Origin: an uncultured Oceanisphaera sp.
GTDB lineage: Bacteria; Pseudomonadota; Gammaproteobacteria; Enterobacterales; Aeromonadaceae
Direction: 5' to 3'
Assembly: GCF_947495715.1 (NCBI RefSeq)
Contig: NZ_CANLZU010000002.1
Location: 124,001-188,000, forward strand
Length of the DNA: 64,000 nucleotides
The notes under the pieces are model-generated. The model was not told the DNA's origin. It saw nothing but the letters and a program-made list of their open reading frames with translations, and made no database searches. Both the position numbers and the translations under genes were made by a program. Shown here one piece after another: positions 4,515-62,765 of the stretch (its first letter is position 1; each line of letters begins with the position of its first letter).

Positions 4515-4600
4515 AGTACAAACGTCGGACAAATGGCCCGCTCCACCGACTCGCTGTGAATACCTCCCTGATACCAAGGAGTTGCCTCTGGTCTAAGGCC
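4515..4600. repeat. Truncated fragment of the TAATACCAA dispersed element
   Basis: The stretch from CAGTACAAACGTCGGACAAA onward, including a CCGCTCCACCGAC block and an AAGGAGTTGCCTCTGGTCT block, matches segments of the dispersed elements at 15983-16470 and 19386-19883. Both terminal repeats and the middle are missing. It abuts the 3' end of the Lrp-family gene. Confidence 0.6.
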
Positions 4601-12681: not shown

Positions 12682-13126
12682 TAATACCTATCTGAATAAA
12701 GATCTGATCTTTCTCGAGTCCGAACTCAGAGGCAACACAGCCGGCTCCCACGACACGCCATGGGCTAAGGCCATCTGCGTTTGGCGATGGCTGCAAACAT
12801 TCACTGGATGTTTGGTCCATCACCGAACTTGATGCAGGCAGCAAGCTGCCCCATGGGGGCTCGGAAATGCCCTCCTTGGCATTTCACGGTCGTGGGAGCT
12901 CGTCTCTGTTGACTCTTTCTGAGCCCCGAGTTGCCTGCAGACAGTGCCAACAGATGACTCTGCAGCATCAAGGAGGACAAAGGGATCTGCTCAGCCGACC
13001 ATCCGCACCATGGATGGTGCGGCTGAGCCCCCAAGGATGGGTTCACGGCGAGTCGGTGGAGCGGACCCTTTGTCCTACTTTTGTAAAGCAACCGAATAGA
13101 TCAGTTATTTAATCAGTTTGGTATAA
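12682..13126. mobile_element. Dispersed TAATACCAA element, copy A (MITE-like)
   Basis: A non-coding 445-bp unit filling most of the fadE-pykA gap. The left end is TAATACCTAT (12682-12691) and the right end TTTGGTATAA (13117-13126). The right subterminal part (AATAGATCAGTTATTTAATC) is the complement of the left ends of copies C and E. Internal hairpins with NGGA loops: CCGCACCA-TGGA-TGGTGCGG (13003-13022) and CCCA-AGGA-TGGG (13030-13041). Short ORFs inside (12801-13112) have no homology I recognise. It encodes no transposase. Confidence 0.8.
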
Positions 13127-15982: not shown

Positions 15983-16470
15983 TAATACCAATAACATTAA
16001 ACAAATGATCTATTTCATTTCTGTATAAACGTCGGACAAAGGGTCTGCCCCACCGACCCGCTGCTAGCACATCCATGTGACGCTCAGCACATGACATCCT
16101 TGTCATGTGACGGTCGCTGGAGCAGATCCCTTTGCCCTCCTTGATGCAGCTGAATCGTCTGTTGGCGCCGTCTGCGGGCAACTCGGTGTTCCAGAAGAGG
16201 CAACAGAGAACGGCTCCCACGACCGTGAAATGCCATGGCCGAAAAATGCTCCTGCTGTTCCGGCATTCCCGCCGTCCCTGGCGGTCAGACGGCATTTCCG
16301 AGCCCCCATGGGGCAGCTTGCTGCCTGCATCAAGTTCGGTGATGGACCAAACATCCAGTGAATGTTTGCAGCCGCAGATGGCCTTAGCCCATGGCGTGTC
16401 GAGGGCGGCGGCTGTGTTGCCTCTGGTCTGGGGCCTCAATATGACCAGATCATTACTGGGATTGGTATTA
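15983..16470. mobile_element. Dispersed TAATACCAA element, copy B (complete, MITE-like)
   Basis: A 488-bp unit with perfect 10-bp terminal inverted repeats TAATACCAAT (15983-15992) and ATTGGTATTA (16461-16470). Subterminal AAATGATCTATTT and CCAGATCATTACTGGG also recur in other copies. Inside are hairpins CACA-TCCA-TGTG (16068-16079), CACATGACA-TCCT-TGTCATGTG (16088-16109) and CCGCCG-TCCC-TGGCGG (16269-16284). It lies in the hexR-rimO spacer. ORFs of up to 170 codons inside it differ in frame between copies and look non-coding. No target duplication is clear. Confidence 0.85.
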
Positions 16471-16547: not shown

Positions 16548-17867
16548 TCAGGCCAGTTCACCCCAGAGATCGTACTCGTCTGAATGGGTGATGGTCACGG
16601 GTACCATCTGGCCGGGAGTGAGGTCGGTTTCACCGTTCAGGTAGACAACGCCGTCGATTTCGGGAGCATCGGCGCTGGAACGACCGATGGCGCCTTCTTC
16701 GTCTACCTCGTCGATCAGCACCTGCATCACCTTGCCGACTTTCTGGGCCAGCTTGCGAGTGGAGATTGCCTGCTGCAGCGACATGAAACGCTCAAACCGC
16801 TCCTGCTTGACCTCTTCCGGCACCGGATCGGCCAGCTCGTTGGCGCGAGCGCCTTCCACCGGGCTGTAGGTGAAGCAACCGACCCGATCCAGCTCGGCCT
16901 GCTCGATGAAGTCGAGCAGCATCTGGAAGTCTTCTTCGGTTTCACCGGGAAAGCCGACGATGAAGGTAGAGCGAATGGTGATCTCCGGGCAGACTTCACG
17001 CCAGCTGCGAATACGTTCCAGGGTGCGATCCACGGCACCGGGGCGCTTCATCAGCTTGAGGATGCGGGGGCTGGCATGCTGCAGCGGAATATCCAGATAA
17101 GGCAGTATCTTGCCGTCACGCATCAGCGGGATCAGGTTATCCACACTCGGGTAGGGGTAGACATAATGCAACCGCACCCAGACGCCCATCTTGCCCAGTT
17201 CTTCGCACAGGGCCTGAATCTGGGTCTTGACCGGCATGCCGTCGGCGAAACCGGTCTTGTGCTTCACATCCACGCCGTAGGCGGAGGTGTCCTGGGAGAT
17301 AACCAGCAGCTCTTTCACGCCGGCATTTACCAGGCGGCGAGCTTCGCTCAGCACATCACCGATGGGACGGCTGTCCAGATCGCCGCGCATCGAGGGGATG
17401 ATGCAGAAGGTGCACTTGTGGTTGCAGCCTTCGGAAATCTTGAGATAAGCGAAATGCTTGGGTGTCAGTTTAACGCCCTGCTCGGGTACCAGGTTGACGA
17501 AGGGGTTGTATTGCGGGCGCGGTACATAACGATGCACGTGCTCCAGTACCTGCTCGTAGGAATGGGGGCCGGTAATTTCCAGTACCTTGGGGTGCACTTC
17601 ACGGATTTGATCTTCCTTGGCACCCAGACAACCGGTGACGATCACCTTGCCGTTTTCGCTCAGGGCTTCGCCTACCGCTTCCAGCGATTCCTGCACGGCG
17701 CTGTCGATAAAGCCACAGGTATTGACGATCACCAGATCGGCATCATCGTAGGAAGGCACCACATCATAACCTTCGATACGCAGCTGGGTCAGAATTCGCT
17801 CGGAATCGACCAGGTTTTTAGGGCAACCGAGAGACACAAAGCCGATACGGGGAACAGTCATACTCAC
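16548..17867 (-). CDS. rimO: Ribosomal protein S12 methylthiotransferase RimO
   Basis: A 439-residue radical-SAM enzyme that adds a methylthio group to the conserved aspartate of ribosomal protein S12. The N-terminal UPF0004 domain has its cluster cysteines in LGCPKN, NTCGF and TGCLG. The radical-SAM domain has GCNHKCTFC (CxxxCxxC) at about residue 150, and a C-terminal TRAM domain ends the protein ([12 protein letters not shown]). It follows E. coli RimO closely, not MiaB. The frame starts with GTG at 17867, two codons before an ATG at 17861; both are possible and neither has a strong Shine-Dalgarno. Confidence 0.96.
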
Positions 17868-19385: not shown

Positions 19386-19883
19386 ATACCAATCCCAGTA
19401 ATGATCTGGTTATATCAAGGCCTCAGATCAGAGGCAACACAGCCGCCTCCCACGACACGCCACTGATAAATGACACTCACAGTTGCAGCCTACTGCGAAC
19501 ATCCACTGGATGTTCGGTCAGGCTGCAACCGTTCGTCACGGCGAGACAAGCTCGCCCCCTGAGGGCTCAGGAAATGCCGTCTGACCGCCAGGGACGGCGG
19601 GAATGCCGGAACAGCAGGAGCATTTTTCGGCCATGGCATTTCATGGTCGTGGCAGTCGATCTCTGTTGCCTCTTCTCGAGCACCGAGTTGCCTGTAAACA
19701 ACGCCAACAGGCAACTCCTTGGTATCAGAGAGGATAAAGGGATCTGCTCCGCCGACCCTCCGCGCCAAGGATGGCGCGGCGGAGCCTACATGGATGTACT
19801 TGCAGCGTGTCGGCGGAGCGGGGCCTTTGTCCGATCTTTGCAGAGCAACCAAATAGATCAGTTATTTAATCCCTTTGGTATTA
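19386..19883. mobile_element. Dispersed TAATACCAA element, copy C (inverted relative to B)
   Basis: About 498 bp with ends ATACCAATCCC (19386 on) and TTTGGTATTA (19874-19883). Read on the minus strand it aligns with copy B over most of its length, including a common block running from GCCATGGCCGAAAAATGCTC to the CCGTCCCTGGCGG hairpin. Two hairpins have stems different from B but the same loop class: CGCGCCA-AGGA-TGGCGCG (19761-19778) and TACA-TGGA-TGTA (19787-19798). Its last three bases are the stop codon of tusE. Confidence 0.85.
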
Positions 19884-23451: not shown

Positions 23452-23542
23452 GGAGGGGTGGCAGAGTGGTTGAATGCACCGGTCTTGAAAACCGGCATGG
23501 GTTTATAGCCCATCCAGGGTTCAAATCCCTGCTCCTCCGCCA
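23452..23542 (+). tRNA. serT: tRNA-Ser (anticodon UGA)
   Basis: A 91-nt class II tRNA. The acceptor stem GGAGGGG pairs with CTCCTCC (one G-U), followed by the discriminator G and an encoded CCA (23540-23542). The anticodon loop CTTGAAA at 23484-23490 reads UGA. A long variable arm (CATGGGTTTATAGCCCATC) and the T-loop GGTTCAAATCC are present. The same isoacceptor follows yccA in E. coli. Confidence 0.98.
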
Positions 23543-36278: not shown

Positions 36279-36547
36279 CTGTCTCTTAGTCACAAGTTTT
36301 TGTTGAACTTAATGAGGCCATCAGGCAAAGCGCACTGCTCAGCCGACACGCCGTAAACCCCTCCCTGGGGGCTCAAACCGCGCCATCCCTGGCGCGGATG
36401 GCCGGTTGAGCAGACACCCTTTGCCCTCCCGTCGGCAGCGGAGTGGTCTGTCAGTGGTACTCAGCGAAGGCTCTAAGCCCGAAAAGAGGCGGCTGGGTAG
36501 CCTCTGAGCATATCTTATGGGCTGACAGAGTAGTGACTAAGAGACAG
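36279..36547. mobile_element. 269-bp non-autonomous element with Tn5/IS50-like ends and 9-bp target duplication
   Basis: 15-bp inverted ends CTGTCTCTTAGTCAC (36279-36293) and GTGACTAAGAGACAG (36533-36547) are flanked on both sides by GCCATAAGT (36270-36278 and 36548-36556). The end sequence resembles the IS50 outside end (CTGACTCTTATACACAAGT), and 9 bp is the IS50/IS4-group duplication size. Inside, about 36335-36430, it carries the core found in the TAATACCAA elements, with the hairpin CCGCGCCA-TCCC-TGGCGCGG (36378-36397). No ORF of note. Confidence 0.88.
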
Positions 36548-36599: not shown

Positions 36600-36696
36600 G
36601 CGTTATTTCTGCAGGTATGGCGTGTTGTGGGAGGTGGCTCTGTTTCCTCGAGTATCCAGTTTCAAATAGATCACATTTTTGCTTAGATTGGTATCA
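36600..36696. repeat. Right-end fragment of a TAATACCAA element
   Basis: GGCGTGTTGTGGGAGGTGGC, a decayed TGTTTCCTC block, AATAGATCA and the terminal ATTGGTATCA (36687-36696) line up with the right ends of elements B and C. The left two thirds are missing. The remainder of the 590-bp pyrF-DUF3820 spacer is heptad-like GCCATAA repeats, the Tn5-like element and the palindrome at 36703. Confidence 0.6.
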
Positions 36697-37918: not shown

Positions 37919-38106
37919 TACCTGCGTAGAGGTGCATAACTTATCAGTAGATCAGCTCAGGGTGATGCCGTTTATCCTGATCGAAAGGAGGTTATGCCGA
38001 AGTCATGTCATTTATCCAATGGCCTGGCTGGGATCGGTACCGAAAGGGCCGATACTGTCATGAATACTTATTCATGATGCGCTATAGCTGGGAAAGAGAA
38101 GACGAT
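37919..38106 (+). ncRNA. Lysine riboswitch (L box)
   Basis: All conserved blocks of the lysine aptamer appear in order: AGAGGTGC (37928-37935), a loop-E-like CAGTAGA (about 37945-37951), GAAAGG (37983 on), GCCGAAG (37996-38002), GGCTGGGATCGG (from 38026), ACTGTCATGA (from 38054) and the closing GCTGGGAAAGAGAAG (38087-38101). No T-tract terminator follows within the leader, so control is probably at translation: a CCTCCTGCTCCTGG stretch (about 38118-38131) could pair near the AGG before the GTG start. It precedes an NhaC-type carrier, the gene known as lysW in other gammaproteobacteria. Confidence 0.95.
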
Positions 38107-38165: not shown

Positions 38166-39725
38166 GTGGAATCTCATCCTTTTATTCAGACCTTCTGGTC
38201 TCTGCTCCCCCCCCTGCTGGCCATTGTGTTGGCTATTTTCACCCGTCGTGTGCTGTTGTCGCTGGGACTGGGAATCATCCTTGGCGCGCTGTTGTTACAG
38301 CAATTCAATCCCCTGACGGCCATCACGCATCTGGGGGGCAATATTACCGGTCTGTTCTGGTCCGACAATGCCGTTAATGAATGGAATGTTAATATATTGC
38401 TGTTTTTGCTGCTATTAGGTTGCATTATCAGCATGCTGAGTCGTACCGGTGCCACGCTGGCGTTTGCGGAATGGGCGCAGTCACGTATTAAAAACCGCCG
38501 ACAGGCCAAGGTAATGACCGGATTGCTGGTCTTTATCTTCTTTATCGATGATTATTTTCACAGTCTGTCGGTGGGTACCATCTGTCGGCCGGTGACGGAT
38601 CGGTTTCATATTTCACGTGCCAAACTCGCCTATTTACTGGATTCGACGGCGGCCCCCATTTGCGTGCTGATGCCTATTTCTTCCTGGGGGGCTTATATCA
38701 TCGCCCTGGTGGGAGGCATACTCGCCAGCCATGGCTTCACCGGACAAAGTGCGCTGAGTACTTTTCTGATGATGGGAGCAATGAATTTTTATGCCATTTT
38801 CACCCTGCTGATGGTGCTGCTGGTGATCCGGGGTGGTTGGGATCTGGGCGCCATGGCACGGCATGAACAACAGGCGCTGAACGGCGAGCTGTTTGACAAG
38901 GCCAAAGGCACGCCGCCTGGCGTGGCCGACAGCAGTGTTACCGTGGGCCGCGTCGGCGATCTGTTGCTGGCAATTAGCACCCTGACGCTGGTCACGGTGG
39001 CGAGTCTGTTGCTGACCGGCGCGCAGGCGTTGGCCCAAAAGCAGATGGACTTTGCGCTGCTGGCGGCCCTTGAAAATACCAATGTGGGTCGGTCTCTGGT
39101 ATTTGGTGGTATGGCGGGATTACTGGTTTGTGCCCTTGCCATGTTCAAGCACAAGGCATCTGCATCAGACTGGGGCCACACTCTTAAGGTCGGGCTCAAG
39201 GGGATGCTGCCGGCGATATATATTCTGTTGTTTGCCTGGACCATTGCCGGACTGATTGGCGAGCTGCAAACCGGTAAATACCTGGCGTCCTTGATCCAGC
39301 AAAATATTCCCTTGTTTATGCTGCCGGCCATTCTGTTTCTGCTGGCGGGAGTCATGGCCTTTGCTACGGGCACCAGTTGGGGAACCTTTGGCGTGATGCT
39401 CCCCATTGCCGCCGATATGACCATGGCGATTGATGCCTCCTTGCTGTTGCCGGGTATGTCGGCGGTCATGGCAGGGGCGGTATTTGGTGACCATTGTTCG
39501 CCTATTTCGGACACCACGATTCTGTCTTCTACCGGTGCCTCCTGTCACCATATCGATCATGTGATCACTCAGCTGCCTTACGCGCTCTCCATCGCCCTGG
39601 TCAGTGTTATTGGCTATCTGGCCCTCGGATACAGCGCCTCAGTGGGTATGGGGCTGCTGGCGGCGTTAGCCTGCTTTATGCTGGTGCTGGCAGGCTGGGC
39701 CTGGCAACAGCAGCGGGCTCATTGA
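38166..39725 (+). CDS. lysW: NhaC-type antiporter-family protein, probable lysine transporter (LysW-type)
   Basis: A 519-residue membrane protein of the Na+/H+ antiporter NhaC superfamily with about eleven or twelve helices. Family motifs: FIDDYFHSLSVGTICRPVTDR and DSTAAPICVLMPISSWGAY in the first half, and FATGTSWGTFGVMLPIAADM and FGDHCSPISDTTILSSTGA in the second. Comparative genomics has proposed that NhaC-type genes under a lysine riboswitch carry lysine; that assignment is adopted from the riboswitch, not from the protein alone. The start is GTG at 38166 with a weak AGGT 7 bases upstream, which fits a riboswitch-limited ribosome site. It ends in a 19-bp palindromic terminator. Confidence 0.85.
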   Translation: MESHPFIQTFWSLLPPLLAIVLAIFTRRVLLSLGLGIILGALLLQQFNPLTAITHLGGNITGLFWSDNAVNEWNVNILLFLLLLGCIISMLSRTGATLAFAEWAQSRIKNRRQAKVMTGLLVFIFFIDDYFHSLSVGTICRPVTDRFHISRAKLAYLLDSTAAPICVLMPISSWGAYIIALVGGILASHGFTGQSALSTFLMMGAMNFYAIFTLLMVLLVIRGGWDLGAMARHEQQALNGELFDKAKGTPPGVADSSVTVGRVGDLLLAISTLTLVTVASLLLTGAQALAQKQMDFALLAALENTNVGRSLVFGGMAGLLVCALAMFKHKASASDWGHTLKVGLKGMLPAIYILLFAWTIAGLIGELQTGKYLASLIQQNIPLFMLPAILFLLAGVMAFATGTSWGTFGVMLPIAADMTMAIDASLLLPGMSAVMAGAVFGDHCSPISDTTILSSTGASCHHIDHVITQLPYALSIALVSVIGYLALGYSASVGMGLLAALACFMLVLAGWAWQQQRAH

Positions 39726-44217: not shown

Positions 44218-44460
44218 ATACCAAACTGCTTAACTAACTGATCTACTCGGTGCTCTGCAAAGGTCGGACAAATGGCCCGCTCCTCCGACACGCCGTGAAC
44301 CCATCCATGGGGGCTCCACCGCGCCATCCCTGGCGCGGAGGGTCGGCGGAGCAGATCCCTTTATCCTCCCTGATGCCAAGGAGTTGCCTGTTGGCGTTGT
44401 TTACAGGCAGCTCGGTGCTCGGGTTTAAAAATGATCAGATCTTTATTCAAATTGGTATTA
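44218..44460. mobile_element. Dispersed TAATACCAA element, copy E (about half length)
   Basis: About 243 bp from ATACCAAACTG (44218) to ATTGGTATTA (44451-44460), so both ends are kept but the middle is deleted. Hairpins CCCA-TCCA-TGGG (44300-44311) and CCGCGCCA-TCCC-TGGCGCGG (44319-44338). It is followed 21 bases later by the GGGGCCGGAGTC palindrome. Confidence 0.8.
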
Positions 44461-62604: not shown

Positions 62605-62765
62605 TGTACGTCGGGCAAAGGGCCCGCTCCGCCGACCCGCTTCGAGCACATCCTTGTGACGCTCAGCACATAACGTCCGACCGTCCGCTTCAGGGATGAA
62701 GCGGCTGAGCGTACACGGATGTATTTACAGCGTGTCGGAAGAGGCAACTGTGTTGTCTCTGGATT
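62605..62765. repeat. Partial TAATACCAA element, copy G (ends missing)
   Basis: The core from CTGTACGTCGGGCAAAGGGC to TGTTGTCTCTGG matches copies B and C. It has hairpins CACA-TCCT-TGTG (62647-62658) and CCGCTTCA-GGGA-TGAAGCGG (62685-62704), again with constant loop class and different stems. The TAATACCAA ends are not present. Confidence 0.7.

Follow-up and report, generated by a model that had tools for sequence, protein, structure and literature searches.

Here, we describe a family of mobile repeats in a 64,000-nucleotide stretch of Oceanisphaera DNA (the window, to which all positions refer unless a locus is named). Element B, a complete MITE at 15983-16470, lies between a gene at 16548-17867, which we take to be rimO, and the next gene; it is flanked by TAA on the left and TTA on the right and is absent at this site in relatives. 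A scan of the window with Rfam returned only a lysine riboswitch (37919-38092, plus strand, scoring 111.3 bits and preceding the ORF at 38166-39725) and a tRNA gene (23452-23539, plus strand), and no family on the repeats. Four copies had been named in a preliminary description of this DNA, and all four were present with both ends when the sequence was checked: element A (12682-13126) and element C (19386-19883), read from the sequence, element B, and the shortened element E (44218-44460), recognized by its end matches. The string TAATACCAA occurs 5 times in the window (0.19 expected), with 4 of the 5 matches at element ends; it takes in the target duplication, and the element proper is TACCAAT...ATTGGTA with a TNA duplication. 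Three partial copies are also found in the window. One of them, at 62605-62765, does hold a domain match (62664-62755, plus strand, 47 bits, degenerate), whereas 4515-4600 is only an outer-stem fragment without a covariance-model match at E ≤ 1. The third, a remnant with a TTGGTAT terminus read from the sequence at 36600-36696, lies where it had been placed and is probably the end of a further copy, whose domain (36324-36425, minus strand, 78.4 bits) had been missed.

The ends TACCAAT and ATTGGTA, with subterminal TGATC, form terminal inverted repeats, as in MITEs. Among 30 loci read, 16 copies show both ends; 13 of them have one and the same TNA triplet at left and right, and the other three (L001, L014 and L020) differ. 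The site of element B was compared across 17 loci: 15 syntenic relatives carry no R1 match (E ≤ 0.001; model R1 is defined below), L370 reads as the uninterrupted site that a MITE insertion leaves empty in relatives, L374 has a domain beyond the gene neighbouring the site, and L380 is without the neighbour gene. No parent transposase with matching ends was found among six PF01609 loci. Terminal repeats like TACCAAT with a TNA duplication are typical of DDE transposases, not of single-strand ones. The family consists of small non-autonomous DNA transposons with these ends and this duplication; its earlier portrayal as dispersed, MITE-like and present in many copies is borne out by the ends, the TNA duplication, the empty sites and the genome matches. 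Beside an element in one relative within the genus there is a group II intron match (L070, 1804-1975, minus strand).

Copy B, searched against its own genome by BLAST, gave 59 matching places among the matches listed (best 40 of 220 candidates scored). The best conserved part of 28 copies served to build a covariance model, R1, which gave at least 150 domain matches in the same genome (150 of 150 scored, from 2388 first-look candidates). In 130 loci, R1 found 160 + 49 = 209 matches; the 199 that were aligned (150 of the 160 from the first round among them) all lie at different places. Further copies, whose absence would have spoken against a family, are thus plentiful, and the projected hundreds of copies per genome hold for domains, though not for elements, of which well over a hundred carry the domain. 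All 22 other examined genomes of the genus have R1 matches, from 2 to at least 65 each, and 35 of 61 genomes overall are positive.

The double-hairpin domain and its paired layout

The unit within the elements is a domain about 100 nt long, in which an extended outer stem (GGACAAAGGG...CCCTTTGTCC) encloses two hairpins, H2 and then H1. Both loops read A-N-GGA-N and are closed by C-G, on the strand opposite to copy B. A kept loop with differing stems had been noted before; the loop is better written in this form and on this strand than as TCCN or NGGA, and the presence of two hairpins in each domain had been overlooked. The domain of element B (16034-16137, minus strand) scores 112.1 bits with R1 and 25.3 bits on the opposite strand; its hairpins, read from the sequence on the minus strand, are H2 (16088-16109), CACATGAC [AAGGAT] GTCATGTG, and H1 (16068-16079), CAC [ATGGAT] GTG. 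The corresponding domains score 101.9 bits in element A (12975-13075, plus strand), 103.8 bits in element C (19732-19832, plus strand) and 97.3 bits in element E (44266-44366, minus strand), so that the four main copies give 97 to 112 bits in sense and 22 to 30 bits on the other strand.

In about half of the units there are two domains in divergent orientation, a layout that the preliminary description did not recognize. Among the aligned domains of the genome, with sequence duplicates removed, there are 64 close pairs, of which 63 are divergent and 60 have 59-62 bp between the two domains, and 69 domains without an aligned partner. In element A, the partner (12731-12913, minus strand, 39.2 bits with model R2) contains an insert; in element B, both GGA loops of the partner are broken by inserts, and its position (about 16199-16421, plus strand) was set by eye, with no R1 or R2 match. 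The GTCCAT-loop hairpin of short elements is H2 of the divergent partner domain, and the objection that this third hairpin contradicts a one-strand RNA was dropped on that ground. Divergent close pairs are also found in records of other genera, Halopseudomonas among them (L257, 7372-7635; L229, L245, L259, L263 and L270), and the paired layout therefore extends beyond Oceanisphaera. A Saccharophagus MAG (L208, 3110-3747) has four domains in tandem, all on one strand and spaced by about 180 bp.

Inserted palindromes split the loops of the partner domain in long elements, copy B among them. Across the 30 best loci, the partner H2 loop is split in 13, intact in 6 and unrecognized by the pattern in 11, the partner H1 loop is split in 16, intact in none and unrecognized in 14, and both are split in 10. 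The inserts are unrelated palindromes, about 47-50 bp or about 75-95 bp long, sitting in the GGA loops of partner H2 and H1 (in the window at about 16238-16286 and 16312-16388; also in locus L027). The GGA loops of partner domains thus look as if they were insertion targets for palindromes.

Loop conservation, covariation and spread

H1 is exactly CANGGANG in 189 of 193 domains of the genome and H2 in 157, while GGA is present in H1 in 192 and in H2 likewise in 192. Twenty-one of the 36 H2 departures are CAGGACG, a CsrB-like form, and with CAGGANG allowed both hairpins fit in 177 of the 193 domains; in 178 domains, H1 and H2 are spaced 22-26 nt start to start. Column conservation in 146 distinct domains (alignment A2) is 1.0 for A, 0.42-0.58 at the first N, 1.0 and 0.99-1.0 for the two G, 0.99-1.0 for the second A, and 0.64-0.71 at the last N. 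The loop letters are selected, and by their sequence they fit a loop fixed at positions that CsrA would read and free elsewhere.

The stems had been said to change in a compensatory way, with the fold itself under selection, and the covariation counts agree. For 28 copies from the genome (27 distinct), 96.9% of alignment cells pair, compared with 90.4% in shuffles and 32-44% in slid controls, and both-sided changes occur in 16 of 38 pairs, compared with 8.3 in shuffles. For 91 model-aligned domains from across the class, 95.1% of cells pair (58.7% in shuffles, 32-47% slid) and 1157 cells are changed on both sides (309 in shuffles); random, non-compensatory stem differences were thus absent from both sets. 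Doubly changed pairs in this wider set, 35 of 38 compared with 32.7 in shuffles, are nearly equal, and the argument therefore rests on the other measures.

Wobble pairs give the fold a strand. The 193 distinct domains hold 6568 Watson-Crick, 352 G.U, 46 A.C and 287 other cells, where a single pair whose commonest state is U.G supplies 98 of the G.U cells; by class, G.U to A.C is 87:9 in stronger, 137:18 in partner and 139:19 in single domains. A G.U pair becomes A.C when read from the complementary strand, so unstranded DNA would give equal counts, and the large excess of G.U shows selection on a single-strand fold. Both strands of an element have the excess when each domain is read in its sense orientation. 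The rows of alignments A2, A3 and A5 were placed according to the model structure; since the copies are related, these counts are not independent events. We regard it as almost certain that the fold is selected in a single strand, and quite likely that this strand acts as RNA, the simpler reading, and not as DNA. Whole elements B and C are predicted to fold very stably (z of -4.75 and -8.71).

Outside Oceanisphaera, the core was sought with the pattern GCCYACANGGANGTATTYACGGCG, which fixes H1 and leaves H2 and the outer stem free. Across the genome collection, at least 119 stretches match it, including some from Stenotrophomonas, Methylomonas, Rheinheimera, Alcanivorax, Shewanella, Yersinia similis and Oceanisphaera arctica, and the 80 titles among the matches listed are, judging from their names, presumably all gammaproteobacterial. 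Of 85 records found by H1 alone, 58 have an ANGGAN hexaloop in their best upstream hairpin; the remaining 27 have GGA otherwise in the loop (14), another loop (8) or no hairpin (5), some of those without H2 being cut by contig ends. GGA therefore lies within the H2 loop in 72 of 85, a test independent of the search pattern. Outer stems vary widely between genomes yet are complementary (at least 10 of 18 positions Watson-Crick, in a register that is the best of 128, picked on Watson-Crick pairs alone and without its own shuffle) in 73 of the 85, with 6 lacking sequence and 6 below threshold. These 73 stems from other genomes hold 66 G.U, 12 A.C and 77 other cells. As judged from sequence, the core is class-wide in Gammaproteobacteria, with unrelated but complementary stems, an extent, YPAL included, that the preliminary description had overlooked.

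CsrA as the putative ligand

The CsrA site has a longer SELEX form and a C-G closing pair, and a spacing of 22-26 nt lies in the range permitted for the bridging of two sites by CsrA/RsmA. The consensus for CsrA/RsmA is given as A(N)GGA in two papers (PMC4066749; PMC11882435). Two features expected of a CsrA/RsmA-binding RNA, A(N)GGA in hairpin loops and paired sites 22-26 nt apart, are both found in the domain, and that its loops are ANGGA sites of this type had previously escaped notice. Because the loop, the closing pair and the doubled sites fit CsrA/RsmA recognition, we read the element as a mobile, putatively CsrA-binding RNA, and CsrA is the probable ligand of the domain. Among the open-licence papers listed, none was found that links the repeat to CsrA/RsmA.

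The genome has one csrA gene and three CsrB (RF00018) matches, two above and one below the cut-off, with 4 to 6 CAGGANG motifs each. Both matches above the cut-off adjoin an element on their 3'-end side, about 73 and about 416 bp from the model match (elements at L192, 1162-1427, and L191, 985-1084, in C17 and C3 of this genome); the weaker third match (L193) has no such element. A survey with R2 (completeness of at least 95% asked) found the element in 78 of 377 genomes of the class and csrA in 330. The csrA gene is present in 77 of the 78 element-positive genomes versus 253 of the 299 negative ones (Fisher p 1.8e-4, with ancestry ignored), and the exception, G255, is an assembly in about 270 contigs. 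A first survey, overlapping with this one in its genomes, had 34 of 185 positive; 31 of these had csrA, the other three being 67-88% complete. In these genome searches with R2, at most 21 or 10 candidates per genome were scored, under stricter filters. Among 38 classifiable records, 19 domains lie sense and 19 antisense to the upstream gene (of 85, another 29 fall in crude ORF calls and 18 at contig edges); so even a split argues against a role in cis that depends on placement in 3' untranslated regions.

On balance, we favour a mobile element with a putative CsrA-binding RNA payload that would act through transcripts as a sponge or tag. Weighing against this reading are the even orientation to genes, the broken GGA loops of many partner domains, the H2 loops other than ANGGAN in other genomes, the opposite strand of Rfam Ysr224 (below), the sub-threshold score with RF01731 and the few element-positive genomes with no csrA match. 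The DNA transposon would carry one or two RNA domains of about 100 nt as its payload and would be transcribed mostly by read-through from neighbouring genes. Its two C-ANGGAN-G hairpins, 22-26 nt apart start to start, could both be held by one CsrA/RsmA dimer, making each transcript a minor sponge and marking that same transcript for CsrA-dependent stability. The two divergent domains in about half of the units would let the element work on either strand. That sponging or tagging is the reason for the spread of the family is a conjecture we put at somewhat below even chances.

Other explanations account for parts of the data. The fold may act as single-stranded DNA, with a RAYT/IS200-type transposase recognizing both loops during replication, which we think unlikely. 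In its favour, G.T wobble pairs in DNA would outnumber A.C just as G.U does, two Y1_Tnp (PF01797) matches are present in the genome, and the palindromes inserted in GGA loops and the lack of orientation bias also suit this explanation. Against it, a mobile unit with TACCAAT ends and a TNA duplication is DDE-like, the two domains of a pair are on opposite strands and each shows the G.U excess, and A-N-GGA-N with a C-G closure is a CsrA-type site. A structured RNA with another partner (ribosomes through GGA), or a terminator or mRNA 3' end protector, is less probable still; it would draw on the very stable fold of elements B and C, but terminators and end protectors need no fixed hexaloops, and the free first N would break a fixed Shine-Dalgarno match.

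Template switching in quasi-palindromes might keep hairpins perfect without selection, and stems are indeed replaced as units and often perfect; the G.U excess and the fixed A and GGA beside a free N are not predicted by it, and we consider this explanation, already disfavoured, very improbable. The same objection meets the alternative offered earlier, a mechanism copying both arms together, which predicts neither the G.U excess (352 to 46 here, 66 to 12 elsewhere) nor the fixed A and GGA beside the free loop N.

Should the domain bind CsrA, a global regulator, some 200 to 400 CsrA sites as yet unlisted would exist in each such genome, a mobile element would prove to be spreading the binding site of a regulatory protein, and CsrA cross-linking and RNA-seq data would be open to re-reading at once. 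Tentatively, selfish or domesticated repeats may scatter paired putative sites, often strand-symmetric, as a class-wide mobile network of CsrA sites that would titrate CsrA and subject transcripts to it, the number of copies in a species tuning its Csr system. A repeat taken for mere palindromic DNA may thus be a scattered control network.

Known relatives and comparable systems

YPAL-type repeats were described in 2006-2007, without an agreed function in the accounts available. RU-2, a 168-nt YPAL repeat of Yersinia printed in Delihas 2007 (PMC2759123), holds the same core, CCGCGCC AAGGAT GGCGCGG, then GAGCC TACATGGATGTA TTTACGGCG. The copy in Yersinia similis (L252), also found by pattern, scores 52.4 bits with R1 and shares core and fold with YPAL/RU-2. 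In a review, YPAL is described as a DNA repeat and open reading frame with 3-26 bp duplications and no TA termini, and might affect the stability of upstream transcripts (PMC2229807). With its own ends, TNA duplication and outer stem, the Oceanisphaera family departs from the 168-bp YPAL unit, whose ends are different and whose duplications span 3-26 bp. Rfam Ysr224 (RF02770), which scores 126.5 bits on L252, is the opposite strand of the core, so the RNA reported in Yersinia may be the antisense of the domain; several Ysr224 copies are reported to be expressed in Yersinia ruckeri (PMC12112432). No paper with both YPAL and CsrA was found in the open-licence literature. With Rfam 15 on 38 loci, a gathering score was reached on the repeat only by the Yersinia copy, on the other strand, and the family as a class-wide RNA thus appears uncatalogued there.

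TwoAYGGAY RNA (RF01731) has two AYGGAY hairpins and is a proposed CsrA binder (PMC4333381). Membership was rejected, as copy B reaches 22.8 of 43 bits (E 0.56, same strand), below the gathering score, and no match at that score was found among 18 other loci. Identity with the CsrB gene (RF00018) was also rejected: its three matches in the genome overlap no R1 match, and none lies in the window. The sponge RNAs CsrB/CsrC and RsmX/Y/Z have several GGA-loop hairpins, as does the domain. Each of them comes from one gene that has a promoter and a terminator of its own; unlike such sponges, the Oceanisphaera family has two sites per domain in about 200 dispersed mobile domains and keeps an outer stem. 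The ERIC, RUP and Correia/NEMIS MITEs are likewise short and non-coding, with terminal repeats and a target duplication; a paired protein-site RNA payload does not figure in the available part of their review description, whereas a putative one is present in the Oceanisphaera family.
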